Assembly: GCA_030626465.1 (NCBI GenBank)
Contig: DAOUOU010000003.1
Location: 1-33,262, forward strand
Source of the DNA: Bacteroidales bacterium
GTDB lineage: Bacteria; Bacteroidota; Bacteroidia; Bacteroidales; UBA10428
Length of the DNA stretch: 33,262 nucleotides
Direction of reading: 5' to 3'
Part shown: piece after piece, positions 8,464-28,393 of the stretch
How positions within the stretch are numbered: the stretch's first letter is position 1
How the letters are laid out: every line of letters begins with the position of its first letter
Translations under genes and position numbers: made by a program
The notes under the pieces: model-generated
The model's input: only the letters and a program-made list of their open reading frames with translations
The model's database searches: none
What the model was told of the DNA's origin: nothing

Positions 8464-10422
8464 ATGGATCTTTCGGTAATAATAGTAAATTATAACGTCA
8501 AGTATTTCCTTGAACAGTGCCTTCATTCGGTTTTCAAATCATTAGAAGGCATGAGTGGTGAGGTTATTGTGGCAGACAATAACTCGGTTGACGGATCGTG
8601 TCAGATGGTGAAAGAAAAATTCGAGGATGTTATTCTTTTTCAAAACAACAGAAACCTGGGCTTCTCCAAGGCAAACAATCAGGGTATTAAAATTTCCAAA
8701 GGGAAGTATGTTTTATTACTTAATCCGGATACTATTGTACAGGAAGATACTTTTTCAAAATGTTTTTCCTTTATGGAAAAGCATTCAGATGCAGGAAGTC
8801 TGGGTGTAAAAATGATTGATGGCAAAGGTAATTTTTTGCCTGAATCGAAAAGATCCCTGCCAACTCCACTTGTATCTTTTTTTAAAATTTTTGGATTATC
8901 TGCTCTTTTACCTAAATCAAAATTATTCGGAAGATATCATTTAGGTTATCTGAATAATAATGATATAAATAAAGTTGAAATATTATCGGGCGCATTTATG
9001 TTTATTAGAAAGTCTGTTCTTGACCAAACAGGGTTTCTTGATGAGACATTCTTTATGTATGGAGAAGACATCGATCTTTCCTACAGAATCATTCTTGCAG
9101 GGTATGACAACTATTATTATCCCGAAACAACTATCATTCATTATAAGGGAGAGAGTACAAAAAAGGGCAGTATCAATTATGTAATGATGTTTTACAGAGC
9201 CATGATAATATTTGCAAGGAAACACTTTTCGGTAAAAAATGCACGCTTGTTTAGTTTTCTGATCAATTCGGCAATTTATTTACGTGCTTCAGCCTCAATC
9301 ATCAGAAGATTCTTTCTTTCCATTATTATTCCCTTAAGTGATGCTTTGTTAGTATTTGTCGGATTCTATTTTCTGGAACCGTTCTGGGAGAAATTCAAGT
9401 TTGGCAAGGAGAATTATTATCCTAATGAATACCTGATGTATGTAGTTCCTTCTTATATTATAATATGGTTTTTCTTTTTATACATTTCTGGTGCTTATGA
9501 AAAACGCACCAGATCTATTGACCTGATAAAGGGTATTTCACTTGGTACAATGGTGTTACTCCTTATCTATGCTTTACTTCCCGAGAGTTTGAGATATTCA
9601 AGGGCACTTATTCTTCTTGGAACTCTTTGGGCAACATTCTCCATATTTTTCACCAGAATCACTATTGGTACTATCCTGAATAATGTAAAACTATCCTTTA
9701 GAAAACAGAAAAGAAGAATTGTTATAGCAGGGTCACCCAGAGAAAGTAACAGGGTTCTTTCAATTATGAAACAGGTAAATATTGATCCCTCTTTTATTGG
9801 ATTAGTGGGATGGAAAGATGAAGATAAAGTTGAAAGCTACATGGGAAATCTTTCGCAACTTAATGATATCATAAAAATAAACCGAATTGATGAGATAGTT
9901 TTCTGTGCCAAGGATATCCCTTCACAGAAGATAATTCAGACCATGTTAAGTGTTTCCGAAACATCAGTTGATTTTAAAATAGCTCCCCCTGAAAGCCTGT
10001 CAATAATTGGAAGCAGTTCAATAAATTCGGCAGGTGAGTTGTACGTTGTTCATTTCAATTCACTTAGTCAAAATCTGGCCAGAAGAAAAAAGAGAATATT
10101 TGATTTAATTGCAGCATTGGCCCTTTTGCTGACAATTCCCATATCTGTTCTTTTTATCAAAAAACCTTTAGGATTTATACGGAATATTGTTCTTGTGATC
10201 ATAGGTGTCAGAACATGGGTCGGATTTTATTATATCCATTCAAGTGAGTTGAGTTTGCTTCCTCGTATTAGTCCGGGAATTCTTACTCCTATAACAGCAT
10301 CCAGGAATAAGGCAATTAATACTGAAACTATTAAGCGGATGAACTTGTTGTATGCAAAAGATTATAAAATGATAACCGATTTATCTATCATATTACGTGA
10401 CTTTAATTATTTGGGCAGATAA
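8464..10422 (+). CDS. Glycosyltransferase family 2 fused to TM segments, CoA-binding_3-like domain and a truncated bacterial sugar-transferase-like C-terminus
   Basis: GT2 motifs DLSVIIVNYNVKYFLEQCLHSV, LLLNPDT, MYGEDIDLSYRI; TM cluster; KRRIVIAGSPRESNRVLSIMKQ; KKRIFDLIAALALLLTIP and PRISPGILTP...KRMNLLYAKDYKMITDLSIILRDF, resembling sugar-transferase ends. Confidence 0.85.
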   Translation: MDLSVIIVNYNVKYFLEQCLHSVFKSLEGMSGEVIVADNNSVDGSCQMVKEKFEDVILFQNNRNLGFSKANNQGIKISKGKYVLLLNPDTIVQEDTFSKCFSFMEKHSDAGSLGVKMIDGKGNFLPESKRSLPTPLVSFFKIFGLSALLPKSKLFGRYHLGYLNNNDINKVEILSGAFMFIRKSVLDQTGFLDETFFMYGEDIDLSYRIILAGYDNYYYPETTIIHYKGESTKKGSINYVMMFYRAMIIFARKHFSVKNARLFSFLINSAIYLRASASIIRRFFLSIIIPLSDALLVFVGFYFLEPFWEKFKFGKENYYPNEYLMYVVPSYIIIWFFFLYISGAYEKRTRSIDLIKGISLGTMVLLLIYALLPESLRYSRALILLGTLWATFSIFFTRITIGTILNNVKLSFRKQKRRIVIAGSPRESNRVLSIMKQVNIDPSFIGLVGWKDEDKVESYMGNLSQLNDIIKINRIDEIVFCAKDIPSQKIIQTMLSVSETSVDFKIAPPESLSIIGSSSINSAGELYVVHFNSLSQNLARRKKRIFDLIAALALLLTIPISVLFIKKPLGFIRNIVLVIIGVRTWVGFYYIHSSELSLLPRISPGILTPITASRNKAINTETIKRMNLLYAKDYKMITDLSIILRDFNYLGR

Positions 10423-10428
10423 TTCATT

Positions 10429-11757
10429 ATGAGTAAAATAGAAGTTATATTACCAGCAATGGGAGAAGGAATTATTGAGGCCACCATTACGAAGTGGTTG
10501 GTCGAGGAAGGTAAATTTGTTCATGAAGATGAATCCTTGCTGGAAATTGCTACAGACAAAGTTGATTCAGAGATACCTGCTCCTGCATCGGGCATGCTTT
10601 CGCGCATCATTTATCGTGAAGGTGAAATACCAAAAGTTGGAGAAGTTCTGGCAATAATTGAGAGCGGGATCGAAAAAAAAATCGTTATTACAGAAGAAAA
10701 AACAGATACAGACATTGGAGATAATACAATTTTTAAAGAGGTGGCAGATAATGAGATCCTTCCTGATAAACCTGTTATTTCGAGCTCAGAATCAAAAAAA
10801 ATCAGATCCTCATCTGAGGATCTGATTTTGACTCCTTTTATACGTTTTCTTGCCAAGAACCGTGGAATCACATTCGAAGAACTTAGGCAAATAAAAGGTA
10901 CTGGGCTTAACGGACGTATTACAAAAGCAGATTTAACTTCCTATATTGTTTCAGGAAGAAGCTATCAGGCGGTTAGATCAGCAGACTTTTCCAGGGAGCA
11001 AGTATCAAAAACTGTGCAGAAGGAAAACAAACAGGAGGAGTACAACATAGGTCCCGGCGAAGAACTGATAGAAATGGATCGCACGCGAAAGTTAATTGCT
11101 GAGCACATGGTACGTTCCAAACGAATTTCCCCACATGTAACCTCTACAGTTGAAGTTGATGTAACCTCCCTTGTCCTATGGCGGAACAAGAATAAAGATA
11201 ACTTTTCTAAGAAGTATGGAGTTAAGCTAACATTTACACCAACAGTTGTTTATGCTGCCGTAAAAGCATTGAAAGAATTTCCGGACATTAATATCTCGGT
11301 TTCCGGTCATTCTATTATTCGCAAGAAATATATTAACATTGGTGTGGCAACAGCATTACCTGATGGAAACCTGATCGTACCGGTGATAAAAGATGCCGAT
11401 AAACGGAATTTTGCAAACATTGCTCTTCAGGTTGCTGATTTAGCATCAAAAGCCAGGCAAAGCAAACTAAAACCATCTGATATCAAAGGAGGTACATTCA
11501 CCATTACAAATATGGGAAGGTATGATAATATTTCAGGCACTCCAATAATCAATCAACCCGAAGTTGCGATATTAGCTGTGGGAGCTATAAAAAGAAAGCC
11601 TGCTGTTGTAATAAATAATGGCACGGAAACACTGGGGATTCGCGATATCATGGTATTATCCCTGACTTATGATCACAGGGTTGTGGATGGTTCTTTAGGT
11701 GGCTCATTTGTTCAGACTCTGGGAAAATATTTAACCAAAGAACTGCCTGAGTATTAG
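10429..11757 (+). CDS. 2-oxo acid dehydrogenase E2 component (dihydrolipoamide acyltransferase)
   Basis: Lipoyl domain EVILPAMGEGIIEATITKWLVEEG...LLEIATDKVDSEIPAPASG; E3-binding domain TPFIRFLAKNRGITFEELRQIKGTGLNGRITKADL; catalytic LTYDHRVVDGSLGGSF. Confidence 0.95.
   Translation: MSKIEVILPAMGEGIIEATITKWLVEEGKFVHEDESLLEIATDKVDSEIPAPASGMLSRIIYREGEIPKVGEVLAIIESGIEKKIVITEEKTDTDIGDNTIFKEVADNEILPDKPVISSSESKKIRSSSEDLILTPFIRFLAKNRGITFEELRQIKGTGLNGRITKADLTSYIVSGRSYQAVRSADFSREQVSKTVQKENKQEEYNIGPGEELIEMDRTRKLIAEHMVRSKRISPHVTSTVEVDVTSLVLWRNKNKDNFSKKYGVKLTFTPTVVYAAVKALKEFPDINISVSGHSIIRKKYINIGVATALPDGNLIVPVIKDADKRNFANIALQVADLASKARQSKLKPSDIKGGTFTITNMGRYDNISGTPIINQPEVAILAVGAIKRKPAVVINNGTETLGIRDIMVLSLTYDHRVVDGSLGGSFVQTLGKYLTKELPEY
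10798..10829. repeat. Perfect inverted repeat, 15-bp arms, 2-nt spacer (AAAATCAGATCCTCA-TC-TGAGGATCTGATTTT), inside the E2 linker
   Basis: Read directly from sequence. Confidence 0.92.
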
Positions 11758-11876: not shown

Positions 11877-14800
11877 ATGAGGATTAACTATCAGTTTTTG
11901 TCTCTCATTTCCATTGCCTCCCTAATTTGCTTTAATGCGATTACTCAGGAGGTAATCAATACCAAAGAATTATTTATTGAGGCTGAATCTTATTTTCTGT
12001 TTGAAGAATACAGGGATGCATTACCCTTGTACCAGAAGATAATACGTACAGAACCAAATAATTATAATGTTCTCTTCAAAATTGGAGTATGTTATCTCAA
12101 CGATACCTATTTGGCAAATAAATCTTTGCAATACCTTAAACAATCTGCTGAAAACATCAATCTTAAATACAAGCGGAATAACTTTCGAGAGAAACAAGCT
12201 CCTCTTGAAGCCCTTTATTATTTTGGCAGAGCTTACCATATCAACAATATGCTTGACGAAGCCATTGAAAGTTATCAGCGTTTTAAAAATCTTGCACATC
12301 CTGATGAATTTGACATAGATATTGTCAATGAAGATATAAATGCCTGTCAGGTTGCAAAAAAGATGCTTGGCAATCCTGTATTTTTCTCACCTATAAATAT
12401 GGGTAATACAATTAATTCAAGGTTTGAAGAGATCAATCCGGTTGTTTCCGGCGATGGGAAAACATTAATATTTACAAGAAAACTACAGTTCTATGATGGG
12501 GTATTTTTAAGCAAGAAAGATGACAATGGAAATTGGTATGAACTCATAAATCTAACTTCTGATTTTGGATTGGATGGGAATACTTACTCATGCGGAATTT
12601 CCTATTTTGGAGATGAAATTTTTGTGTATCGAAGTGACAATTATGACGGTAATATTTATTCCAGCAAACTTGTTGGAGATAATTGGGGAAGATTAATCAA
12701 ATTGAACTTTAACATCAACACCAAATTCTGGGAATCGCATGCAACTCCTTCACCAGACGGACAATACCTATATTTCACTTCAAATCGTACCGGCGGATAT
12801 GGAGGCCTTGATATTTATAAATCAAAGAAAGGCGCAAAAGGAGAGTGGGGATCTGCAGTAAACCTTGGCCCGGTTATTAACTCTCCTTATAATGAAGACA
12901 CACCTTTTTTAAGTAACGAAGGATATACAATTTTTTTTAGTTCTCAAGGGCATGAAACAATGGGAGGTTATGATATTTTTGTAAGCAATTTAAAGAGCAA
13001 TGGTACCTGGAGTAAACCAAAAAATATGGGTTCTCCGGTTAATACTACCAACGACGATTTATTTTATAATCCGATAGGAGTAAATTCTTTTGGTTACTAT
13101 TCCTTGTTTGATGAATCAAGTTCTTTTGGCATGTTGGACATTTATAAGATTGAAGTGTATAATGAGATGATTCCTCGAAGTTTTGAGGTAAAGGGACAGT
13201 TAAACGTTGCTGATGCCAGTTCGAGATTTTATAAAAAGCTTACTGCAAAACTTATTGATACAGAAACAAGGGAAATAGTTAACGAAACCATGGTTGAAGG
13301 AGACGGGAGTATTTCATTACCCGCCTCACAGGGCGCATATATTTTAGTAATTGAGGGGCAGGAAGTTGAATCTTACCAGAAAGAAATAATCCTTTCCCTT
13401 ACACAACCTGAGACAATTGTTGTTTTGCCTGCAATGAATTTAGTGAAAACTGACAGTAAAACACCTCCTGTAGAAATTGGATCACCAGTAAAAGAAAAGA
13501 TAGTAGCAAAAAGCGATTTCTATGCAGTAAGTGATTCAAGTGTTGTTCCTATTTCCCTTATCATTCCAAAAGGATCCGATTTGAATATTGAGGTTTCGGT
13601 TAACGACAGATTTGGCTATTCAGAACGGTTAGAATCTGTTAATAAGAGATTTACATATTTCTACAAACCAAAACCAGGAGAAAATCTATTAAAGTTTACG
13701 GCTACTGATAAAGATGGAGTTATTTCTTCAACAGAAGTTGTAGTTACCTATTATTTGCCTTATGTGGCTGAAAAAGAAATTAAATTACAGGAAAAGGAAG
13801 CTATTCTGTCGTTGTATGCCAAATCGTTTGATTTGTTAGCAGTAGGAGCATTGCAGGAGTATTTGCATGAGATAGAAACCTCTGATTTCAAGAGCTATTA
13901 CCATTTGTATACTCATCTTTTAGAAGTATCAGAGGAAAAGGGATTTATAAAGAAAGATATTGACGAGGTCTTTTCCATATATTTTACACAAAAGAGCATT
14001 ATACTATTCGATCTGGAGCTTAAAAAAGCATATTCAGAACAAGACAGTAATTGGCAACGTGTTCTTGATAGTTCAACTATCCCTATAATCTATATTCAAA
14101 CTCTTCTAAAGAAAAAACTTGTTTTAGAAAAGAACATACAGGAAGCATTACTGAAAATTGTATCAGATAAATTTGAGAGTGGTAAAGAGACATACAATTA
14201 TCTGTTAGGATTTCATAGGAATACAGATGAGTTTTCCATAAAAGACATTGATATGGCAACATCCGTTCAGGCCTGGGAATTGCTTTCAAACAATATTGGT
14301 GATAAGGATGCTTATTCCTTACTTCAACTGGCATCTACTACCGAAGGCCTGGATTATTTTTACCAGAATTTATTAGCAGCTTCAACAGATAGTTTGCATG
14401 ATTATCTGACAAGTATACAATTTGAACCTCTGGGGATTAATAATTCGGTTGATTTGACCGAACATTTGTTTGATATTGCATCCCAGGGAAGCTTTACTTT
14501 GGCAGAACTTATTAAAATTCTGGAACTGGTCTCAAATAATAAAAAGTATTATTTGAATTCTTTTAACGAGGTACTTACCAATAGTGCAAGAGGCACTTTA
14601 AAATCACAACTTTTACTGCTTAATATGGATGAAAAGCAGATTCACAGTTACGAAGGATTATTGCGGTATCTTGTTGAACAATCCCAACATAAAGATTTCT
14701 CAAGAGAAGAAGTGTATAACTTACTTCTCGAATTGATAGGTATTACAGATATTAATGTATTTGCACATAAAATAAAATCTTATAGTATTGCCTCAATCAA

Positions 14801-15083
14801 TAAGGCTCTTGCAGATACTTCATTAAAATATTTTTCAAATCCATTTGAGCTATTGCAATATCTTTTAGTTTCGGTTCAGGATTACGACTTCACTGAGTCT
14901 GATATCAATAATTTACTCATAAGAATGATTTTGGAACGTGGACTTGCAGAGGGAATTGATAAAAATTATGATGTGGATGAAAAGAAAATTTGGAAGAACA
15001 AGAATTTCCTGACATCCATTATCTTAGTAAATATCGTAATATTGATATTAATTATTCTCCTATCCCGACGTAGAAAAAAATAA
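11877..15083 (+). CDS. Paralog A: exported TPR + PD40 propeller protein with long C-terminal helical-repeat region and C-terminal TM helix
   Basis: Signal peptide; TPR (EAESYFLFEEYRDALPLYQKIIRTEPNNYNVLFKIGVCYLN); PD40 motifs (PSPDGQYLYFTSNRTGGYGGLDIYKSKKG; FSSQGHETMGGYDIFVS); C-terminus NFLTSIILVNIVILILIILLSRRRKK. Confidence 0.88.
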   Translation: MRINYQFLSLISIASLICFNAITQEVINTKELFIEAESYFLFEEYRDALPLYQKIIRTEPNNYNVLFKIGVCYLNDTYLANKSLQYLKQSAENINLKYKRNNFREKQAPLEALYYFGRAYHINNMLDEAIESYQRFKNLAHPDEFDIDIVNEDINACQVAKKMLGNPVFFSPINMGNTINSRFEEINPVVSGDGKTLIFTRKLQFYDGVFLSKKDDNGNWYELINLTSDFGLDGNTYSCGISYFGDEIFVYRSDNYDGNIYSSKLVGDNWGRLIKLNFNINTKFWESHATPSPDGQYLYFTSNRTGGYGGLDIYKSKKGAKGEWGSAVNLGPVINSPYNEDTPFLSNEGYTIFFSSQGHETMGGYDIFVSNLKSNGTWSKPKNMGSPVNTTNDDLFYNPIGVNSFGYYSLFDESSSFGMLDIYKIEVYNEMIPRSFEVKGQLNVADASSRFYKKLTAKLIDTETREIVNETMVEGDGSISLPASQGAYILVIEGQEVESYQKEIILSLTQPETIVVLPAMNLVKTDSKTPPVEIGSPVKEKIVAKSDFYAVSDSSVVPISLIIPKGSDLNIEVSVNDRFGYSERLESVNKRFTYFYKPKPGENLLKFTATDKDGVISSTEVVVTYYLPYVAEKEIKLQEKEAILSLYAKSFDLLAVGALQEYLHEIETSDFKSYYHLYTHLLEVSEEKGFIKKDIDEVFSIYFTQKSIILFDLELKKAYSEQDSNWQRVLDSSTIPIIYIQTLLKKKLVLEKNIQEALLKIVSDKFESGKETYNYLLGFHRNTDEFSIKDIDMATSVQAWELLSNNIGDKDAYSLLQLASTTEGLDYFYQNLLAASTDSLHDYLTSIQFEPLGINNSVDLTEHLFDIASQGSFTLAELIKILELVSNNKKYYLNSFNEVLTNSARGTLKSQLLLLNMDEKQIHSYEGLLRYLVEQSQHKDFSREEVYNLLLELIGITDINVFAHKIKSYSIASINKALADTSLKYFSNPFELLQYLLVSVQDYDFTESDINNLLIRMILERGLAEGIDKNYDVDEKKIWKNKNFLTSIILVNIVILILIILLSRRRKK

Positions 15084-15094
15084 TAGCCAAGTAT

Positions 15095-17104
15095 ATGAAA
15101 TATTGCCTATATTCAGCACTAGTACTCATCTTACAGACAATTTTTATTGTAGATATTCCCGCTCAAATCTGGCTTTCAAATAAGGATATATATAATGAGG
15201 CAGAAGAATACCTGCACGCCAATGAATACATAGAGGCTCTGCCTCTTTATATGTTACTTGAGAAAAAAGAAGTAATAAATGCCAATATCTCTTATAAAAT
15301 TGGTATATGTTATTTGAATATCCGGGGTAAAAAGAATAGGTCAATTCCATATCTGGAAAGTGCCAGCCAAAATGTAAGGTATGATTATCAAAATACTGTT
15401 GAGGAAACAAATGCTCCGCTCAAGGCGATTCTCTTATTAGGTGTAGCATACAGAATAAATAACGAACTAAAAAAAGCGATTAAAACTTTTGAATCACTTC
15501 GAGATAAGGTGGCAATTAGTGACTCGGAGCTGGATGCAATAATCGATATGCATATCAAACGATGCGAAAATGCTATTCTTCTGGGTGCTTTCCCGGGAGA
15601 ACCGCGTACTGAGAAACTTCCGGATCATATAAATAATGAATTTTCAAATTTCAATCCTGTTTTGGTTGACCATGACAGAGTATTGTACTATATGGAAGAA
15701 CTGAAGTTTTATGATGCTTTAATGCGTGTGGAAAGTGATAATGATAGTTGGGGTATGCCTGAAAACTTAACACCAAAAATTGGAAGTGATGGGGATCATA
15801 TACTTGTTGGTGCATCATCCGATGGAAAAACATTGCTGCTATACATATATGAAGCCCTGAAGGCAGGTGAAATTTACTCCATTCAATTTGCTGATGGTGG
15901 CTGGTCTAAACTAAAGCCACTGAATAAAAATATTAACACAAAGTATCACGAAACACATGCCAGTTATTCGGCAAAGAATGAGACCCTGTATTTTACAAGT
16001 AATCGTCCCGAAGGTTATGGAGGCTTGGATATTTATATGTCAAAACTTGACGAAAATAACAACTGGGGACCTGCGGTAAATCTGGGACCAATTATTAATA
16101 CCCCCTACAACGAAGAAACTCCCATTATCAATAACGATGATAATATTCTGTATTTTAGTTCACAGGGGCATCTGAATATGGGAGGATACGATGTTTTTCA
16201 TTCCTTGCGTAAAGAAAAAAACGAGTGGAGACAACCGATCAATATGGGATCGCCGGTATCAACAACCGATGATGACCTTTTTTATTTTCCTCTTGAAAGT
16301 GGTATTTCCGGATTAATGTCACGTCTGGAAGAGTCCAATTCAACTGCATACGACATATACCGTTACAATAGCATGGTGTTTGCAAATTCTCCCCGGTTTG
16401 ATGTAAGGGGAAAAGTACAATCGGTTGATAGTTCAAATTACATAGATCACCAGGTAATAGTTGTTAATAATGAAACATCAGACACACTTATAAGCAGAAT
16501 TCCTGAACCGGATGGAAATTACGAAATATTATTGCCTGCAGGAAATTTTTCGATTCTTGTTTTTGATCAGAAGGGAAATATTAGTTCCGGCACGGTAATT
16601 CTCGAAGATGGAGATACCGAGAAGGAAGTAATTACAGGAACTCTCGCTCAAAGGGTTGATAGTATTGAATCAGAGGAAATAAGAAGAGATACCGTGTATC
16701 TAAAACATTTGCTTTTTGGTTTTGATAATCATGTATTTTCAACCGTATACAAGAATTATCTCGATACCATAATCAGTATTATGCACAAATATCCCTCTCT
16801 TGTAATTAACATTGAAGGATATACAGATGCAATTGGTAGCGAGAATTATAATCTTTATCTTTCAAGGCGACGGGCAAACGCCGTTGCCAGATATCTCCTT
16901 TCTGATAATATTGGCCAGGAAAGGATTAAGGTTATAGCCCATGGAGAATCCAATCCGATTGCAATTAACACAAATACAGATGGGACTGATTGTTCTGATG
17001 GACGAAGATATAACAGAAGAGTTGAACTCGTACCTCAACAGGATACATCAGAAGTTATCTTTGTTATAGAGATTCATATGCCTGAAAGACTAAAACAGAA
17101 GTAA
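15095..17104 (+). CDS. Paralog B: PorE-like exported TPR + PD40 propeller + regulatory-like domain + OmpA domain protein
   Basis: Signal peptide, TPR, PD40 (LYFTSNRPEGYGGLDIYMSK), OmpA family C-terminus NIEGYTDAIGSENYNLYLSRRRANAVARYLL...DGRRYNRRVELV. Confidence 0.9.
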   Translation: MKYCLYSALVLILQTIFIVDIPAQIWLSNKDIYNEAEEYLHANEYIEALPLYMLLEKKEVINANISYKIGICYLNIRGKKNRSIPYLESASQNVRYDYQNTVEETNAPLKAILLLGVAYRINNELKKAIKTFESLRDKVAISDSELDAIIDMHIKRCENAILLGAFPGEPRTEKLPDHINNEFSNFNPVLVDHDRVLYYMEELKFYDALMRVESDNDSWGMPENLTPKIGSDGDHILVGASSDGKTLLLYIYEALKAGEIYSIQFADGGWSKLKPLNKNINTKYHETHASYSAKNETLYFTSNRPEGYGGLDIYMSKLDENNNWGPAVNLGPIINTPYNEETPIINNDDNILYFSSQGHLNMGGYDVFHSLRKEKNEWRQPINMGSPVSTTDDDLFYFPLESGISGLMSRLEESNSTAYDIYRYNSMVFANSPRFDVRGKVQSVDSSNYIDHQVIVVNNETSDTLISRIPEPDGNYEILLPAGNFSILVFDQKGNISSGTVILEDGDTEKEVITGTLAQRVDSIESEEIRRDTVYLKHLLFGFDNHVFSTVYKNYLDTIISIMHKYPSLVINIEGYTDAIGSENYNLYLSRRRANAVARYLLSDNIGQERIKVIAHGESNPIAINTNTDGTDCSDGRRYNRRVELVPQQDTSEVIFVIEIHMPERLKQK

Positions 17105-17223
17105 CAAATTCAGAATTCAAGATATTTGTATCAATCTTATCTCAACTTTTTTTATTAATTTAATGGTGTTAACATGGAATGAAATTGTTAATAGAGTGAT
17201 CTGTTTTATTCATGTTATTGATT

Positions 17224-17231
17224 TAAATTTG
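17224..17231 (+). promoter_or_regulatory. Putative -7 element TAAATTTG
   Basis: TAnnTTTG match 16 nt upstream of ATG 17248. Confidence 0.45.
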
Positions 17232-17247
17232 AATAAAATCCATCCTG

Positions 17248-19110
17248 ATGAAAAGGCTGATTATTATCTTAATACTGGTTCATTATGTGGGATTCAGTTC
17301 TTTTGGGCAAAAAAGTGAAAGTGAAATTGCTTTGAAAGAATATTTTATCGATGCTGAGTTTTTTCTTGCTCAGGAATTCTATATAGACGCGCTTAACGAT
17401 TATTTACAGGTTTACAGAAGAGGGTATGATAATAATGCAAATATCAATTACAGAATAGGTATCTGTTATTTGAATATTCCGGGGCAAAAAGAAAAATCCA
17501 TTCAGTATTTTGAAACTGCTAAAACATCAGTATCTGCAAAATATCGTGAAAGTAGCCTTAAAGAAAAGAATGCTGCCATTGATGTTTATCTATACCTTGG
17601 TAATGCTTATAGGGTAAACAACAGATTGGATGATGCTATTCGTTCTTATAAAGAATATAAGAAACTTTTGCCCGAGAATGAATCAAATTTGCATAAATAT
17701 GCTGACCAGCAGATTGAGGCCTGCAATATTGCCAGCGAATTCATGAAACATCCGATAGATGTTGAATTTTCTAATCTTGGTCCTGTTATCAATAACAGTG
17801 GTGAAAACTACAAAGCTGTGGTTTCAGGAGACGGATCAGTTCTTGTTTATATGAATCGGTTGCCTTTTTATGATGCGGTATCTTTTTCCAGGAATATTGG
17901 TGGAGAGTGGTCAGAACCTGAAAATATTACGCCTCAGATAATGTCTGATGGAAACCAATTTGTCACTTCTTTATCGTATGATGGCACCATGCTCCTTCTT
18001 ACAAAGGAAGATGAATTCAATAGTGATGTACTTGTCAGTCATTATGTAGATAACAGATGGACAAAATCTGAACTCCTGGGCTCAAACATTAATACAAAAT
18101 ACTGGGAGTCTCATGCCTGCATTTCAAAAGATGGTAAAACACTTTATTTTACAAGTAACCGCAAAGGAGGAATAGGAGACATGGACATCTATGTTTCTCA
18201 TCTGACCGCAGAGGGGAAGTGGGGACCGGCGATAAATCTGGGCACTGACATTAACACCAAACTTAATGAAGATACTCCATTTATTACTGAAGATGGTCAA
18301 CAACTTTATTTTGGCTCACAGGGATTTACAAGCATGGGAGGTTATGATATATTTGAATCAAAATTGGAAGGTGAGGGGAAATGGTCTGTACCTGAGAATC
18401 TGGGTTTTCCGATAAACACAACAGATGATGATTTGTTTTACTATCCTTGGAACAATGGTGTAGTGGCATACATGGAAAAAATACAAGAGGATAGTTATGG
18501 TGCTACCGATATATATAAAGTTATATATCCTTTAAAAATCGATGAAAGTATTGCACAACAAGTTATTCCTGTTGATACAAAACCTGATACGACAACCGGG
18601 ATCATTCCGGCACCATTGACAGAGATGCCGGAATCTTCCGAAATTAGAGAAGAACCTGAGCAGACGCTTGAAATAGCGGAGGTTAAAACCATTGCTATTT
18701 CTCCCGTCTTTTTTGGCTTTGATAAATCGATTCTAACTGAAAAGGGCAAGGAAGAATTACACAAGATCGTTGATTTGCTCAGGCAAAATTCGCATATACG
18801 TGTAGAACTGATTGGGTATACTGATCCTTTAGGACCAGCTTATTATAACGTAAGATTGGCAGAAAAAAGAGCAGTATCAGCCATGAATTTCCTTATTGAA
18901 CAGGGGATTGATGCTGATCGGCTAAAAGCAATTGGAAAAGGTGAAGTTGATTTTATCGCAGTGAACACCAATAAAGACGGATCAGATAATAGTAAGGGCA
19001 GAAAATACAATCGCAGAGTCGAATTTGAGATAACAGGTGTTGATAACAATACCTTAATTATAAAGCGGATTGATCCGGTGCCAGAGCATTTGAAAATTCA
19101 ACAGAAATAA
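17248..19110 (+). CDS. Paralog C: PorE-like exported TPR + PD40 propeller + OmpA domain protein
   Basis: Signal peptide MKRLIIILILVHYVGFSSFGQ; TPR; PD40 (LYFTSNRKGGIGDMDIYVSHL; FGSQGFTSMGGYDIFESK); OmpA ELIGYTDPLGPAYYNVRLAEKRA...GRKYNRRVEFE. Confidence 0.9.
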   Translation: MKRLIIILILVHYVGFSSFGQKSESEIALKEYFIDAEFFLAQEFYIDALNDYLQVYRRGYDNNANINYRIGICYLNIPGQKEKSIQYFETAKTSVSAKYRESSLKEKNAAIDVYLYLGNAYRVNNRLDDAIRSYKEYKKLLPENESNLHKYADQQIEACNIASEFMKHPIDVEFSNLGPVINNSGENYKAVVSGDGSVLVYMNRLPFYDAVSFSRNIGGEWSEPENITPQIMSDGNQFVTSLSYDGTMLLLTKEDEFNSDVLVSHYVDNRWTKSELLGSNINTKYWESHACISKDGKTLYFTSNRKGGIGDMDIYVSHLTAEGKWGPAINLGTDINTKLNEDTPFITEDGQQLYFGSQGFTSMGGYDIFESKLEGEGKWSVPENLGFPINTTDDDLFYYPWNNGVVAYMEKIQEDSYGATDIYKVIYPLKIDESIAQQVIPVDTKPDTTTGIIPAPLTEMPESSEIREEPEQTLEIAEVKTIAISPVFFGFDKSILTEKGKEELHKIVDLLRQNSHIRVELIGYTDPLGPAYYNVRLAEKRAVSAMNFLIEQGIDADRLKAIGKGEVDFIAVNTNKDGSDNSKGRKYNRRVEFEITGVDNNTLIIKRIDPVPEHLKIQQK

Positions 19111-19117
19111 ATAAATG

Positions 19118-19146
19118 AGCTGTCTTTCTACCAGACAGCTTTTGTT
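19118..19146 (+). terminator. Rho-independent-like terminator AGCTGTCT-TTCTACC-AGACAGCT-TTTGTT
   Basis: Perfect 8-bp stem, 7-nt loop, T-rich tail, just after the stop of paralog C. Confidence 0.75.
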
Positions 19147-19201
19147 ATTCATTGCCAATTGAGCTCTTAATAAATCGGTATACATTTTGCTGCCTTTTTT
19201 T

Positions 19202-19209
19202 TATTTTTG
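19202..19209 (+). promoter_or_regulatory. Putative -7 element TATTTTTG
   Basis: TAnnTTTG match 21 nt upstream of ATG 19231. Confidence 0.4.
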
Positions 19210-19230
19210 AATTAACCAAACTTGCTATCG

Positions 19231-20562
19231 ATGAAAATGTTTCTTTCATGCCTGTTTATAGCATTCGTTATAGGCTTTACTACAATACAGACTTTTTGCC
19301 AAAATGATAATGCAATTAGTGAAAACTTTAGAGAAGGTGAGTATTTCTTTAAAAGGGGAGAATATAAAAATGCAGTGATGTATTATATCAAACTGGTAGC
19401 AATAGACTCGCTTAATTCAAATTATAATTTTAAGGTTGGAGAATGTTATCTGAATATTCCTTCAAAGGAGCATCTTGCAATACCTTATTTTGAAGTAGCG
19501 GTAAAAAATGTTGTACCAAAGAAAAAGTATAAGAGAAGGTCGCAGGAAGAAAGGAACGCTCCATTGCATGCATATTTTTATCTGGGCAATGCTTATCGTA
19601 TCAATAACAAATTGGATAAGGCTTTGGAGAGCTATGCAAAGTTTATTGATTCTCCCTTTTTTTGGGGCAACTATAATCCGGGTATTGTCGAGCGGGAAAT
19701 CAAGTCCTGCGAAAGAGCAAAAATTATTCAAGATGCTCCTATTGAATATGAAAAAATAAATCTTGGAGAGGCAATTAATTCGCGTTTCTCAGAAGAAAGA
19801 CCTGTTGTATCGGGTGACGGGAATACACTAGTATTCATAAGACGCTTACAATTCTACGATGCTATATTTTACTCTGTGAAGGAGAATGGCAAATGGCGAA
19901 AAGCGAAAAATATTAATCCGCAAATTTTATCTGATGGTGAATTCTACCCTTCAGGGTTATCGCACGATGGAAGTCAATTGCTATTAATAAAAAAAGAATC
20001 AGAGACAAGCAATATTTATATTTCGTATCTTGAAGTAGACAACTGGTCAGAAGCCATAGAAGCAGATAATAATCTGAATTCAAATTCATCCGAAATACAT
20101 GCAAGTTTCGATCGGGAAGGAAATACTATTTATATAACTAGCAACAGATCAAAGAGCAAAGGTGGTTATGATATTTTTAAATCGAAACTTACTTCAAAAG
20201 GAACATGGAGCAAGCCTAAGAATCTGGGGAAGACAATTAATTCCGAATTCAATGAACAGGGAGCATATAATTATTCAATTCCCGGCGTACTCTTTTTTTC
20301 CTCCAAAGGGCATTATAACATGGGAGGCTTTGACATCTTTTATAGCAGAAGAACAGGTAAGAAATGGTCCATACCGGTAAACATTGGATATCCAATTAAT
20401 GATACTCGTGACAATCTGAATTATTGTCCTTCAGAGAAACTGAAAGAAGGATATTATGCTATCAATGATTCCCAAGGACTTGGCCAGTCTGATATATTTC
20501 TTATAAAAATTAAATCACTAAGTGTGTTGAATTTTGAACTGGAAGATGAGAAGGAACAATGA
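19231..20562 (+). CDS. Paralog D: exported TPR + PD40 propeller protein lacking a C-terminal OmpA domain
   Basis: Signal peptide MKMFLSCLFIAFVIGFTTIQTFCQ; TPR; PD40 motifs (GNTIYITSNRSKSKGGYDIFKSKLTSKGTWSKPKNLG; FSSKGHYNMGGFDIFYS); ends soon after the propeller. ATG 19231 preferred over TTG 19222. Confidence 0.88.
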   Translation: MKMFLSCLFIAFVIGFTTIQTFCQNDNAISENFREGEYFFKRGEYKNAVMYYIKLVAIDSLNSNYNFKVGECYLNIPSKEHLAIPYFEVAVKNVVPKKKYKRRSQEERNAPLHAYFYLGNAYRINNKLDKALESYAKFIDSPFFWGNYNPGIVEREIKSCERAKIIQDAPIEYEKINLGEAINSRFSEERPVVSGDGNTLVFIRRLQFYDAIFYSVKENGKWRKAKNINPQILSDGEFYPSGLSHDGSQLLLIKKESETSNIYISYLEVDNWSEAIEADNNLNSNSSEIHASFDREGNTIYITSNRSKSKGGYDIFKSKLTSKGTWSKPKNLGKTINSEFNEQGAYNYSIPGVLFFSSKGHYNMGGFDIFYSRRTGKKWSIPVNIGYPINDTRDNLNYCPSEKLKEGYYAINDSQGLGQSDIFLIKIKSLSVLNFELEDEKEQ

Positions 20563-20752: not shown

Positions 20753-21286
20753 ATGAAGAAAAAAAAGAAAATAAATCTTAGAGCGCTCGAAGCTGAGGAT
20801 ATTGGCTTGCTTTACGAGTGGGAGAATGATAAACGAATATGGCAAGTGAGCAATACCATTACTCCGTTTTCAAAATTTATCCTGCAAAAATATCTTGATA
20901 ATTCTCACATGGATATTTATCAGGCAAAACAACTGAGATTAATGATCGATCTTGCTGAAGGCGATTCAAAGAGAACAGTTGGAGCAATTGACCTTTTTGA
21001 CTTTGATCCTTTTCATCTGAGAGCAGGTGTTGGAATTCTAATAGGGGGAGAAGCAGACCGCAATAAGGGGATTGCTACTATGGCCATGGAGGAACTTATC
21101 AATTATTCTTTTAACATTCTTCACCTACATCAGCTATACTGTAATATTTCTGCAAAAAATAAAGCAAGCTTGAGTGTATTCAAAAAAGCAGGATTTAGTA
21201 TTTGTGGCACAAAAAGAGAATGGTTGAAGTCACATGAAGGATTTGTTGATGAAGTTTTACTTCAACTAATCAATTCAAGTTATTAA
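20753..21286 (+). CDS. GNAT family N-acetyltransferase (RimJ/RimL/SpeG-like)
   Basis: INLRALEAEDIGLLYEWENDKRIWQVSN...GVGILIGGEADRNKGIATMAMEELINYSFNILHLHQLYCNISAKNKASLSVFKKAGF. Confidence 0.92.
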   Translation: MKKKKKINLRALEAEDIGLLYEWENDKRIWQVSNTITPFSKFILQKYLDNSHMDIYQAKQLRLMIDLAEGDSKRTVGAIDLFDFDPFHLRAGVGILIGGEADRNKGIATMAMEELINYSFNILHLHQLYCNISAKNKASLSVFKKAGFSICGTKREWLKSHEGFVDEVLLQLINSSY

Positions 21287-21422
21287 CATTTTTAATAAGT
21301 TAAATAAACAAATTCAAATATTATTTATAACTTAAGTGCATTAACAGCATAATATGGTTTGCACTGGGAAAGGAAATACTCCTGCTTCTATAAAATATCA
21401 ATTACCCTTGAGCCTTATTATT

Positions 21423-23006
21423 ATGAGAAGGAAAGTTATTGAGTACATTATACTGATTTTTATTTGCTCATGTTCTTTTCAAGCAAAAGCTCAGAGTCTG
21501 ATCGCTTTAAAGGATTATGTTATCAAAAAAGACAAATTTGCAGTCGATAAGGCCATTGACAAAATAAAAGAGGCAGGAGAACTCACGCAGGAAGCCAATA
21601 ATTACTATAATGAGGCATTGGAACTACAATCGAATTATAAGCTTGATGAACAGACACTTCAGAAAAAGTTAGCAAAGGTTGAGAAGAAGGCACTGGAAAC
21701 CCAGATGAAAGCAGATAAAATCTATACTTCTGCCTATAAGTCTTTGTATGAAATATGCCAGAAAACTCTACAAGCCACTGGCACTGTTACTTATGGTGAT
21801 GCGGATAGTTTTATAGAAACAGCCGAAGAAATGATGAATAATGCTTCATCAAAAAGAAAGGAAGCATCGGGTGTTACTAATCCATATGAAAAAGCAGCAA
21901 TGCTGAATGATGCAGCAGGAATGGAAAATACTGCAATTGAGAATATGATCGTGGCGTTTAAGGCACAGGCAGGAGAAGATGTTACATCGGCTATGGCAGA
22001 ATCAACTGCTGAGGAATATTATGATTACCAGGAAGAAAGTTATGCCTCTTCTCAGGAAGAGTCATATACCAGTGAGGTATATCAAGTTAGTGAAAATCTG
22101 GCAATCGACAAGAATATAATCCAAAAGTATGAGGATTATGTATCAGACGAATCTATACCTGATCCAATAATGATAAATCGTTCAGGAGTAGTTGGAGTAT
22201 CTGAAGCATCGGTAGATCAGGCAAGGATAATTCTTCATGAGTACACAACAGGAGATATCAGTGCAATGTATACGGACAAAGAACCTTCATTGGCTATCCT
22301 GGATTCCATTAGCAGCATAACTCAGACAGAAGAAGTCACTGGTACTATTGATGATGAATATGCAAGTCAGTACGAGGAGAGAATCATAGAGATGGAGGAG
22401 CCTACCGAAGCAAGAGAAGTTTTTGACATAAGTTATGTGACGCAATCTAAAGGGGTTCGGTTCATGGTGCAATTGGCGGCAAGCAGAATCCCTCTTAATC
22501 GTGCTCAGATGTGGGCTATTTATCCGGGCAATCTTACCATTGGAGTTATCAGAGAAGATAACTGGTACAAGTATCGCATAACAGGATTCAGACTTTTTTC
22601 AGAGGCAAACCGGGTTGCAATTAAATCAGGTGTTAAATATGCCTGGGTTTTATCATCAAACGATGGGATCTTAATAAACCTTGTAGAGGCAAGAGACATG
22701 ACGAGGGTTTTGGAAGCTGATGTAAAACGGAGAGGTAGAGGTGTTATTGAAAATGAAACTGATTTCTTTGTGCAGGTTTTGGCTTCCAAAATAAGACTAA
22801 ACGAGCAGGAGATGAATAGCCATTGCGGTTATTCAGGCCGTTGCAGAGAAATAATTGAAGAAGGATGGTTCAAATATCAAATTTATGCTGGCACATCTTA
22901 CCAGGAGGCGCTCTCGTTGAAAAATGAGATTACCGGTAAGTCATTTATTGTTACATATAAAGCCGGATCTAAACAAAATCTATATAAAGCTATACATAAC
23001 AAGTAA
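21423..23006 (+). CDS. Exported protein with coiled-coil N-terminal region, Tyr/Glu/Ser-rich linker and two SPOR-like repeats at the C-terminus
   Basis: Signal peptide MRRKVIEYIILIFICSCSFQAKAQ (ATG 21423 preferred over 21354); two related segments FMVQLAASRIPLNRAQM...REDNWYKYRITGF and FFVQVLASKIRLNEQEM...EEGWFKYQIYAGTSYQEA. Confidence 0.8.
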   Translation: MRRKVIEYIILIFICSCSFQAKAQSLIALKDYVIKKDKFAVDKAIDKIKEAGELTQEANNYYNEALELQSNYKLDEQTLQKKLAKVEKKALETQMKADKIYTSAYKSLYEICQKTLQATGTVTYGDADSFIETAEEMMNNASSKRKEASGVTNPYEKAAMLNDAAGMENTAIENMIVAFKAQAGEDVTSAMAESTAEEYYDYQEESYASSQEESYTSEVYQVSENLAIDKNIIQKYEDYVSDESIPDPIMINRSGVVGVSEASVDQARIILHEYTTGDISAMYTDKEPSLAILDSISSITQTEEVTGTIDDEYASQYEERIIEMEEPTEAREVFDISYVTQSKGVRFMVQLAASRIPLNRAQMWAIYPGNLTIGVIREDNWYKYRITGFRLFSEANRVAIKSGVKYAWVLSSNDGILINLVEARDMTRVLEADVKRRGRGVIENETDFFVQVLASKIRLNEQEMNSHCGYSGRCREIIEEGWFKYQIYAGTSYQEALSLKNEITGKSFIVTYKAGSKQNLYKAIHNK

Positions 23007-23826: not shown

Positions 23827-26223
23827 ATGAATGATGAGAATCTGATAGCGGTTGAGGAGCAGGGTATTGATTTACAAAAATGGCTTAGACTTTTTTTACA
23901 CAACTGGCTGCTTTTTTTCATCAGTGTTTTAATTGCGCTGATAGCTGCAGTTGTCTTTATCAGACTTTCAACAACTCAATATGAGTTAACAACTCACGTT
24001 CTGGTAAATAAAGAGCATAATCCGCTGGATAAATCAGAGCTTTTCTCTACGCTTTATACAGATCCATATCAATTAGAAAACGAAAAGGGTGTATTAAGGG
24101 CCAAAACAATCACAAGCCGGACTTTACAACAATTGGATTTTCAAACCAGCTACTATGTTAACCAGCGATTCAACAAAGTAGAATTATACAACAACACTCC
24201 AATTACGGTTGAGATGGATACTACCCATCTTCAACCTCTTGGGATCTACTTTTCAGCAATATTCTTAAGTGATACTTTAATAGAACTTGAGGCAGAAGGT
24301 GAGGATGTCGTTTTGTACGATTTCTCAAACAATCAGGTGCAACAAATAATACCTGAATTCAAATTTTCAGATACAGTGAAATTTGGGCAGATAACAGGCA
24401 ATTCCTATTGCAGGTTTACGATCTTGCCTGGATATGCTTATGTCACAAACCAGGATTTAGACAAGAATTACCTTTACAGATTTCATTCATTGAGTGAACT
24501 GATTCGTACGTTTCGTCATTTCAAAATTGAAAACGATCGTGGTTCTTCCATATTAACAGTTTCTTTTCGATACAGACATCCACAAAAAGCAGCCGATTTT
24601 TTAAACAAACTGATCAGGGAATATTTGGTCAGGGGGGTTGAACGTGATAATCAGATTGCCGAAGCAACAATTCGGTTTATCGATGCACAATTGATAGATA
24701 TTGTTGACTCTTTGCATCTATCAGGCGAACGTCTGCAAGATTTCCAGTCTTCCAAACAGGTATTGGATATTGGTTTTCAGGCAGAGAAGGTATACACAAA
24801 GCTTGAAGTTCTTGAAGCAGAAAGAGCCAAATTGCTGGTTAAAAAGAGATATTTTAATTATTTGCTTCAAAACCTTCAGACCAAGTCGGATATAAATGAC
24901 TTAATAGCACCTACTACACTCGAAATTAATGACCCGGTATTAAACAATCTTATTATAGAGCTGGCAGATCTTTATAGCGAAAGAGCTGAAATTTCCTTTA
25001 TTTCTATTAAGAACAATCCCTATCTAAGCTCTCTTGAAGTGCAGATTAACAATACAAGACGCAAGCTGATGGATGCTGCACGAACAGTTCTCGAAGCAAC
25101 CGAAATAACCATTGAAGAAACCGATGCCCAGATTTACAGTGCGGAGCAGACATTAAATCGTTTGCCAAAAGATCAACAGCAGTTATTGAATATAGAACGT
25201 AAATTTAAATTGAATGATGAGCTTTATACCTATCTGCTTACCCGCCGATCGGAGATGGAAATTTTTAAAGCATCCAATTTGCCCGCAAATGAGATTCTTG
25301 ATCGGGCTGATCCCGATGATGCCCAGGCTGTATCACCGAATGTGAGATTGAATCTTATTGTTGCATTGATGCTCGGATTCTTTTTTCCCGGAGCGTTGAT
25401 CTATCTTCGTGAGACACTGAATAATAAGATACGTACCAGGGAAGATATACAAAAGCTTTCTGCTTTACCAATTATTGGACAGGTCATTGATTCAAAATTT
25501 AGTTTTTTCCCGGCCGTGCTGAGTAAGCCAAATTCTGTATTAACAGAATCGTATCGTACATTGCGGACCAACCTTCAATTTGTAATTGATGAAGCCGTAT
25601 CGAATGCTGTACTGATAACATCAGCAATTCAAGGCGAGGGAAAAAGTTTTACTGCTTTGAATTTAGCATCTGTATACGCCTTTTATGGAAAGAAAACAGT
25701 ATTGGTTGATTTTGACTTAAGAAAATCGCAGCTAAAAGAAAATCTTGGAATAGAAAAAGATATGGGTTTAAGCAATTATCTTAGTAAAAATGCCGACTAC
25801 AAAGAGATAATATACACGAATGATAAAATAAACTTTGATCTCATACTCTCTGGTCCTGTTCCGCCAAATCCATCGGAACTGATCGCTTCATCACAAACTG
25901 ATATTCTTTTTGATAAGATGAGAAAGGATTATGATCTGATAATTATTGATTCTCCTCCTTTGGGAGTAGTATCAGATGCACTTCTCATATACCCTCATAC
26001 CGATATTTCATTATTGGTAGTTCGATACAATTTTACTTCAATGGAAGTGTTTGAAAATGTTATAGAAGATCTGAAAACTCGCAAAATAGAAAAAATCAAT
26101 ATAATCTTAAACGATGTAATCATTTCCAAATCAAAGTATGGCTATGGCTATGGTTATGGATACGGGTACGGTTATCTTGAAAGCAGGCAGAGAAAAAAAA
26201 GATTTTGGAGCAAAAGGCAATAA
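23827..26223 (+). CDS. Wzc-like polysaccharide co-polymerase / BY-kinase with Tyr-Gly tail
   Basis: Wzz-like N-terminus with TM; Walker A SAIQGEGKSFTALNLAS, Walker A' VLVDFDLRKS, Walker B LIIIDSPPLGVVSDA; tail KYGYGYGYGYGYGYLES. Confidence 0.93.
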   Translation: MNDENLIAVEEQGIDLQKWLRLFLHNWLLFFISVLIALIAAVVFIRLSTTQYELTTHVLVNKEHNPLDKSELFSTLYTDPYQLENEKGVLRAKTITSRTLQQLDFQTSYYVNQRFNKVELYNNTPITVEMDTTHLQPLGIYFSAIFLSDTLIELEAEGEDVVLYDFSNNQVQQIIPEFKFSDTVKFGQITGNSYCRFTILPGYAYVTNQDLDKNYLYRFHSLSELIRTFRHFKIENDRGSSILTVSFRYRHPQKAADFLNKLIREYLVRGVERDNQIAEATIRFIDAQLIDIVDSLHLSGERLQDFQSSKQVLDIGFQAEKVYTKLEVLEAERAKLLVKKRYFNYLLQNLQTKSDINDLIAPTTLEINDPVLNNLIIELADLYSERAEISFISIKNNPYLSSLEVQINNTRRKLMDAARTVLEATEITIEETDAQIYSAEQTLNRLPKDQQQLLNIERKFKLNDELYTYLLTRRSEMEIFKASNLPANEILDRADPDDAQAVSPNVRLNLIVALMLGFFFPGALIYLRETLNNKIRTREDIQKLSALPIIGQVIDSKFSFFPAVLSKPNSVLTESYRTLRTNLQFVIDEAVSNAVLITSAIQGEGKSFTALNLASVYAFYGKKTVLVDFDLRKSQLKENLGIEKDMGLSNYLSKNADYKEIIYTNDKINFDLILSGPVPPNPSELIASSQTDILFDKMRKDYDLIIIDSPPLGVVSDALLIYPHTDISLLVVRYNFTSMEVFENVIEDLKTRKIEKINIILNDVIISKSKYGYGYGYGYGYGYLESRQRKKRFWSKRQ
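26137..26175 (+). repeat. (YG)6Y-coding dipeptide repeat at the C-terminus of the BY-kinase
   Basis: tat ggc tat ggc tat ggt tat gga tac ggg tac ggt tat. Confidence 0.95.
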
Positions 26224-26228
26224 GATCA

Positions 26229-26702
26229 TCATAATATACTGAAACGAGGGATCTCTTTCAGAAAATCGAAAGTATTTTCAGCATCATTTAACTTACAACA
26301 GTAATGTTTCATTCCGTTCGTTACGAGTAAGTAGTTGGCCTTTATTGAAATATTGTACAATGATATCTGGTCGAATGTATCCTGGTTTACAGCTATTTCA
26401 GGAGCTTTACATTCAATAAGCATAAGGGCATGACCATTTCGATCATATACCAATGCATCATATCGGCGTATCTGTCGATTCACTTTAATGGCTGCTTCAG
26501 TGGATATTAACGAAGGGGGATAATCCTTTTCTTGTATAAGGAACTGCAATATATTCTGACGAACCCATTCTTCCGGGGTAAGTAAAACAAACTTTTTTCG
26601 ATACGGATCATAGATCTGCTGTTTATCATTTTCTGACAGAGTGATAGTAAAAGAATATTCCGGCAGATTCAACTTTTTCATTTTTGCGTAAGGATAATTC
26701 AT
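26229..26702 (-). CDS. Solitary HsdR-N-like PD-(D/E)XK nuclease-fold protein
   Basis: VRQNILQFLIQEKDYPPSLISTEAAIKVNRQIRRYDALVYDRNGHALMLIECKAPEIAVNQDTFDQISLYN; D...ECK core of the HSDR_N family. Confidence 0.82.
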   Translation of the reverse strand: MNYPYAKMKKLNLPEYSFTITLSENDKQQIYDPYRKKFVLLTPEEWVRQNILQFLIQEKDYPPSLISTEAAIKVNRQIRRYDALVYDRNGHALMLIECKAPEIAVNQDTFDQISLYNISIKANYLLVTNGMKHYCCKLNDAENTFDFLKEIPRFSIL

Positions 26703-27772: not shown

Positions 27773-28393
27773 ATGACTGTACTCATTATTGCAATTACAA
27801 TACTTATTTCTGTACTGGCCTTTAATAACCGGACTTTATTCTCTCGTCTGCAGTTTAATGCTTATCAGATCTATTACCGCAGAGAATTTTACAGACTTTT
27901 AAGTCATGGTTTTGTGCATGCAAACTGGTGGCACCTGCTTATCAATATGCTTGTTTTGTATTTCTTTGGAGGGTATGTTGAGCAGACATTAAAAATACTT
28001 TCTGTGCAAGGCATGTTAAAATATCCATTACTTGTATATCTGATCCTGTATCTTTCCGCCATCGTTTTTGCCTCAAGTATCAGCCTGGTAAGGCACAAAG
28101 ATAATCATTGGTACAATTCGGTCGGAGCCTCGGGAGCAGTCTCGGCAGTGGTTTTTTTCAGTATCTTTTTTGAGCCATGGAAGAAACTATACCTTTATGG
28201 CGTGCTGGGTATACCGGGGATCGTATTCGCTGTTCTTTACCTGATATATGCGCAATATATGTCGCGCCGGGGAGGAGACAACATCAATCACGACGCACAC
28301 TTCCTGGGGGCTGTTTTCGGCTTTGTTTTTCCTCTTTTTATTGATATGAACTTGTTCAAATACTTTCTTTCCCAGCTGGGAGGGATTTTTTGA
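27773..28393 (+). CDS. Rhomboid family intramembrane serine protease
   Basis: FYRLLSHGFVHANWWHLLINMLVLYFFG; catalytic Ser motif GASGAVSAVV; catalytic His AHFLGAVFGF. Confidence 0.93.
   Translation: MTVLIIAITILISVLAFNNRTLFSRLQFNAYQIYYRREFYRLLSHGFVHANWWHLLINMLVLYFFGGYVEQTLKILSVQGMLKYPLLVYLILYLSAIVFASSISLVRHKDNHWYNSVGASGAVSAVVFFSIFFEPWKKLYLYGVLGIPGIVFAVLYLIYAQYMSRRGGDNINHDAHFLGAVFGFVFPLFIDMNLFKYFLSQLGGIF

Follow-up and report, generated by a model that had tools for sequence, protein, structure and literature searches.

Positions 1 to 33,262 of the forward strand of contig DAOUOU010000003.1, hereafter the window, come from a 70% complete genome (GenBank assembly GCA_030626465.1) of a Bacteroidales bacterium of the GTDB lineage UBA10428. 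The window contains an array of four consecutive plus-strand genes encoding paralogous proteins, denoted A to D, in which a common core is joined to different C-terminal ends. Here, we describe the architecture, phylogeny and genomic context of this array and compare it with the type IX secretion system (T9SS), the Tol-Pal system and other known envelope proteins.

Architecture of the array

Protein A (11877-15083, 1068 amino acids) consists of a signal peptide, a TPR region, a TolB-like beta-propeller, two beta-sandwiches, a helical-repeat stalk, and a C-terminal transmembrane helix followed by the basic tail RRRKK. Protein B (15095-17104, 669 amino acids) combines TPR, propeller, beta-sandwich and OmpA domain; protein C (17248-19110, 620 amino acids) comprises TPR, propeller and OmpA; and protein D (19222-20562, 446 amino acids) is limited to TPR and propeller and carries no anchor. 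The genes are separated by 11, 143 and 111 bases, and the start codon of D is TTG, with in-frame ATG codons at 19231 and 19237.

A preliminary description, made from the letters of the window alone, had claimed four consecutive open reading frames (ORFs) with a common signal peptide, TPR and propeller and with C-termini diverging in just this manner, and the ORF coordinates and family scans agree with it. In the Pfam scan, PD40 was detected in all four proteins, TPR matches were weak in all four, and OmpA was found in B and C only; transmembrane calls were made by hydropathy rather than with a dedicated predictor, and signal peptides are by-eye judgements. The cores of A to D are 36-40% identical in pairwise comparisons (240-360 bits), far beyond chance. 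The landmark motifs listed in that description are real, but they are not literally identical in all four proteins: A has FYDG in place of the claimed FYDA, and in D the claimed NTTDDDLFY is replaced by NDTRDNLNY and INT..NEDTPF by INSEFNEQGAY. Likewise, A to D indeed contain no lipobox, but the contrast drawn in this respect with PorE of the T9SS fails because the PorE ortholog of the same genome also lacks one; a loose lipobox pattern matched only 2 of 140 relatives.

Protein A: a TolB-like propeller on a stalk of variable length

The AlphaFold2 model of A, built from 29 aligned sequences, has a mean pLDDT of 81. The TPR region (11961-12371, residues 29-165), a weak Pfam match, was modelled mostly with pLDDT above 90, and is followed by the beta-propeller (12381-13160, residues 169-428; PD40, 74.5 bits) and the two modelled beta-sandwiches (13179-13751, residues 435-522 and 548-625). 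When the model was compared with the Protein Data Bank (PDB) using Foldseek, 19 of the 20 best matches were TolB, the remaining one being an archaeal S-layer propeller; 1crz was matched with an E-value of 1.8e-9, at a TM score of 0.41-0.43 by target length.

The stalk (13788-14957, residues 638-1027), delineated by a repeat hidden Markov model (HMM) and the structural model, is built from a repeat that recurs about every 66 residues, copies of which were detected in the window protein at residues 654-699, 828-882, 896-951 and 962-1015. The iterated repeat HMM found 0 to 11 copies among 50 A-type sequences, a set that includes a few truncated proteins and one SPOR paralog. Copy number is correlated with protein length (Spearman 0.93), which is partly expected given that the repeats form the added length; judged by this repeat detection, the length differences among A proteins are differences in repeats. 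The longest A-type proteins (L189, L194 and L195; about 1490 amino acids) contain 8-11 detected repeats, and the repeat-free ones (600-723 amino acids) keep the terminal transmembrane helix and basic tail. By sequence, no PDB relative of the stalk was found, nor was any found by fold at E < 1 with a model of the stalk alone, which was built from 5 sequences only (mean pLDDT 68) and is weaker than the model of full-length A.

The C-terminal helix and basic tail (15000-15080) stand out by a hydropathy of 3.18 over 19 residues, and the last helix was modelled at residues 1042-1066. Both elements, as the preliminary description had assigned them, are retained by all 29 complete A-type proteins in the first set of sequences. 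Asn 1052 (15030-15032), inside the helix, is invariant in 17 aligned sequences of the family and not in other families; it may have a role in helix packing. An exosortase or rhombosortase sorting signal was considered and rejected, no conserved motif of this kind being present before the helix in the 29 tails. A rhomboid protease gene (27773-28393) shares the conserved neighbourhood, and the topology of A is that of a rhomboid substrate; this proximity may be due to chance since the rhomboid gene is also present where the array is absent. What is new in A is the combination of a stalk formed by a repeat of about 66 residues, in species-variable number, with a constant membrane anchor.

Peptidoglycan-binding, anchor-free and SPOR-bearing members

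The OmpA domains of B (16715-16981; PF00691, 62.7 bits, and 67 bits in the genome scan) and C (18709-18984; 67.4 bits, and 71.3 bits in the genome scan) score well above the cut-off of 27.2. Their conserved Asp and Arg positions, pointed out earlier for the window, proved to be intact in B, C and nearly every relative in a motif scan; the full-length exceptions listed have variants, such as NTD, that escaped the search pattern. All 27 D-type proteins lack both OmpA and a transmembrane helix.

In many relatives, a fifth paralog, E, with a SPOR end is present, which is a new observation. It lies between D and a GNAT acetyltransferase gene in five members of the same genus whose locus is complete and in one further genus. 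One E protein matches SPOR (PF05036) at 37.9 bits against a cut-off of 21, another scores 17.3 bits, below this cut-off, and the tails of all 7 E proteins align and are homologous. The SPOR domain binds denuded septal glycan. In other families of the order, OmpA and SPOR occur in one protein, or SPOR occurs alone, and a literature search of limited scope retrieved no report of PD40 combined with SPOR. E resembles septal SPOR proteins in its end and differs from them in that its SPOR is joined to a TPR-propeller core. Downstream of the window array, a secreted SPOR-like ORF (21354-23006) directly precedes Wza and Wzc; its SPOR match is weak (15.1 bits), whereas, at 28.0 and 24.8 bits, its orthologs from other genera exceed the Pfam cut-off.

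Phylogeny and conservation of the array

In a maximum likelihood tree of 103 cores, obtained with a quick method that left 30 of 100 inner branches with support below 80, A, B, C, D and E each form one clade, with support of 90, 100, 97, 96 and 100, respectively. Further families of the order are represented in the A, C and D clades, so that the underlying duplications predate the family. The two PorE rows retained after length filtering and one other OmpA protein of the genome fall outside these clades with support of 99.

The array is flanked on the left by two plus-strand genes (8464-11757), one for a protein resembling GT2 and sugar transferases (8464-10422, hereafter GT8464 or GT) and one for an E2 acyltransferase (10429-11757), and on the right, 190 bases after D, by the conserved GNAT gene (20753-21286, plus strand). 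We examined 23 close genomes and 295 genomes of the order. The gene order in the family (genomes G001-G022) is h5935-h6643-TPR-GT-(E2)-A-B-C-D-(E)-GNAT, followed by either SPOR-Wza-Wzc or HSDR-holA-rhomboid; in one family genome (G009), A and B-C-D are split over two places, with runs of N within A. Elsewhere in the order, the array usually takes the form TM-OmpA-none (TM, transmembrane) or a variant of it.

Among the loci with both GT and GNAT, exactly one transmembrane member is present in 36 of 36; it comes first in 32 loci and second in the other 4 and is never combined with OmpA or SPOR. The commonest anchor strings are TM-OmpA-OmpA-none (11 loci), TM-OmpA-none (9) and TM-OmpA-OmpA-none-SPOR (5). 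Most of these loci were found via A, so that the presence of A is partly selected for; its single copy, position and anchor are unaffected by this selection. In a scan anchored on GT8464, which samples loci without bias toward the array, four Bacteroidales loci with GT and GNAT contain an array including A (L081, L082, L088 and L092), and in eight GT is directly followed by GNAT (L089, L098, L101, L111, L133, L138, L154 and L155). In distant Bacteroidota (L084, L090, L091, L121, L123, L139 and L143), TPR-propeller genes without the transmembrane type follow GT-E2; in four of these (L084, L090, L091 and L121) the proteins are different TPR-propeller proteins and include OmpA members of 1164-1363 amino acids.

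Conservation of the order and of the C-terminal diversity had been named beforehand as the point on which the idea of a multi-part system would stand or fall. Both were retained throughout the family and, for the most part, in at least 12 families of the order, and the earlier suggestion of one module displayed on several anchors is borne out by anchor types and an order that are conserved and by anchors that are fixed per clade. It has to be asked whether a local expansion with little division of labour, in which duplicated PorE-like genes acquired diverging C-termini and stayed adjacent by descent, would suffice. The copy number, which ranges from 1 to 6 across lineages, the occurrence of A alone in one relative and the lack of the array in the majority of the 295 genomes of the order (53 are positive at E <= 1e-150, a threshold that also admits C-type proteins) fit such a scenario. 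Nevertheless, A to E form separate clades of old origin, in which anchors and order are fixed, and drift would not be expected to leave exactly one membrane-anchored member in each locus, so that we regard this explanation as unlikely. Judging by the conserved order and clade structure, the array is not a local accident.

Relationship to the type IX secretion system

The preliminary description had noted a resemblance to PorE of the T9SS. B and C share with PorE (PG1058, NF052230) a signal sequence and the order of TPR, PD40 propeller, beta-sandwich and OmpA; the TPR-PD40-OmpA order is found in neither A nor D, and A, D and E lack OmpA. That a single genome can encode several PorE homologs, some of them extended at the C-terminus, has been reported previously (PMC5053529). 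In a direct hmmscan, the array proteins score far below the NF052230 cut-off of 600 bits (A, 128.8; B, 193.5; C, 204.2; D, 107.7), whereas the true PorE of the genome, encoded on contig C81, reaches 671.6 bits; a further difference from PorE is the inner-membrane tail of A.

SprA is present in the window genome (on two contigs), in 277 of the 295 genomes of the order and in 52 of the 53 array-positive genomes, the exception being an 82% complete genome (G161) with SprA-positive relatives; across the 295 genomes, array and SprA are not associated (Fisher p = 0.21). Six genomes (G060-G065) contain SprA and an intact empty site, and their best match to A is at most 140 bits genome-wide; two others with GT-GNAT loci (G066 and G067) have array-like matches of 214-223 bits elsewhere in the genome. 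PorP-like genes number 8 in the incomplete window genome and at least 11 in every other family genome listed, and none of those listed lies in the array, the nearest on the same contig being about 26 kb away.

The array could, in principle, be an accessory set of the T9SS, with PorE paralogs each holding a PorP/SprF-like barrel and a type B cargo in the manner of PorE-PorP-PG1035 of Porphyromonas gingivalis, which form a complex (PMC9143113). The PorE domain order of B and C and the abundance of PorP-like genes in family genomes are in line with this idea, which we nonetheless consider improbable, given the true PorE ortholog elsewhere in the genome, the lack of a listed PorP-like gene within the array, the T9SS-positive relatives without the array, and the outgroup position of PorE in the core tree, in which two PorE rows could be placed. 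As a principal identity of the array, a T9SS component was rejected on account of the separate PorE, the T9SS genomes without the array and the absence of PorP from it. A link to the T9SS was thus not supported: there is a separate true PorE, T9SS-bearing relatives do without the array, and SprA is not associated with it.

Neighbouring genes and polysaccharide export

GT8464 marks the locus across the phylum; it encodes a GT2 domain fused to a sugar-phosphotransferase-like (WcaJ/EPS_sugtrans) region, with a C-terminal catalytic domain that Pfam does not recognise. The neighbourhood raises the prospect that the array scaffolds polysaccharide export, perhaps holding the export channel to the wall: GT8464 adjoins it in nearly all loci, phylum-wide, and SPOR-Wza-Wzc follow GNAT in the window and in many family members. 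Yet in several family members and in other families GNAT is directly followed by HSDR-holA-rhomboid, without Wza-Wzc, GT8464 stays in place where the array is absent, and the remaining neighbours, holA among them, give the impression of an ancient synteny of housekeeping genes. Because holA, HSDR and rhomboid are also kept where the array is missing, the neighbourhood alone is weak functional evidence, and we deem a role in polysaccharide export quite unlikely.

Other features of the window include a two-component-regulator propeller with Y_Y_Y joined to a SpoIIE phosphatase (776-4027), in which no histidine kinase domain was found; a GYGYGYGYGY run that forms the C-terminus of the Wzc-like kinase (26120-26220); and a small orphan HSDR_N protein, encoded on the minus strand (26229-26702), whose gene overlaps the start of holA, a pair kept in many Bacteroidales.

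A putative multi-anchor envelope tether

Overall, the array looks more like a cell-envelope tether of several parts than like a cluster of secretion genes. We propose, tentatively and with a probability of roughly 0.45, that its proteins are parts of a Tol-Pal-like periplasmic tether in which CpoB/TolB-like cores are set on different anchors. This proposal is made because the anchors are fixed per clade, with one inner-membrane member in every flanked locus, and because nearly all of the best fold matches of A are TolB. Further points in its favour are the SPOR tails of E, the near absence of TolB_N from the order, and the published proposal for PorE and phenotype of CHU_0125 described below. 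The domain composition, anchors, clades, conservation and variation in repeat number are observed, whereas the contacts between cores, the localisation and the function of the array proteins are inferred, as follows. Every part would carry the same hub, a CpoB-like TPR region joined to a TolB-like propeller. A would be fixed in the inner membrane by its C-terminal helix, on a stalk of species-specific length; B and C would be fixed to peptidoglycan through OmpA; D would be free in the periplasm; and E of relatives would be fixed by SPOR, probably at the septum. The cores may bind each other or common outer-membrane partners, and the inner membrane, the wall and the outer membrane would thereby be kept at a set spacing, possibly mostly at division sites.

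The array shares with the Tol-Pal system (CpoB, TolB, Pal and TolA) a TPR hub, a TolB-like propeller supported by Foldseek, an OmpA domain with the conserved Asp and Arg, and an inner-membrane-anchored part. It differs in that the hub domains are fused in every member, the membrane anchor of A is C-terminal rather than N-terminal, TolB_N is absent from the array, and motor genes are not seen in its neighbourhood. TolB_N (PF04052) was not found in the window genome or in the 23 close genomes and was detected in 2 of the 295 genomes of the order; no motor genes were annotated in the family scans of the window, TolQ and TolR not having been searched for genome-wide. One literature search, of limited scope, on a lack of Tol-Pal in Bacteroidota retrieved no papers. 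In 2025, PorE was proposed to be a CpoB-TolB-Pal fusion that tethers the outer membrane to peptidoglycan in Bacteroidetes without tol-pal loci (PMC12204202). Deletion of the related TPR-PD40-OmpA gene CHU_0125 of Cytophaga hutchinsonii (NF053607) impaired outer-membrane integrity and increased vesicles about 6-fold (PMC5891637); A to D score 131-216 bits against the cut-off of 620 of that family, and CHU_0125 was described as a single gene, not as a multi-anchor set.

Several observations weigh against the tether. PorE of P. gingivalis (PG1058) is reported to be dispensable for outer-membrane integrity (PMC5053529). No outer-membrane link was found, in that there is neither a lipobox nor a PorP-like barrel among the array genes. 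In the model, the likeness to TolB is that of a common fold, with a TM score of about 0.4. The window array has no SPOR member E, and 4 of the 6 scanned E proteins gave no SPOR match at E <= 0.01. Finally, the relatives with an empty site live without the array, which is therefore no indispensable substitute for Tol-Pal within the order.

A bolder version of the tether, which we consider unlikely, is a previously undescribed trans-envelope machine of Bacteroidota. In such a machine, an inner-membrane TPR-propeller protein on an adjustable stalk, together with peptidoglycan-bound, soluble and septum-bound copies, would replace TolA-TolB-Pal and would coordinate constriction of the outer membrane with wall remodelling where canonical TolB is lacking.

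A stalk with a varying number of repeats suggests a spacer that possibly follows the width of the periplasm. The array would extend the 2025 proposal for PorE by adding, within one conserved cluster, an inner-membrane partner (A), a soluble partner (D) and a septal partner in relatives (E). It thereby makes testable the idea that PorE-like fusions link the outer membrane to the wall in Bacteroidota without a recognisable tol-pal locus.

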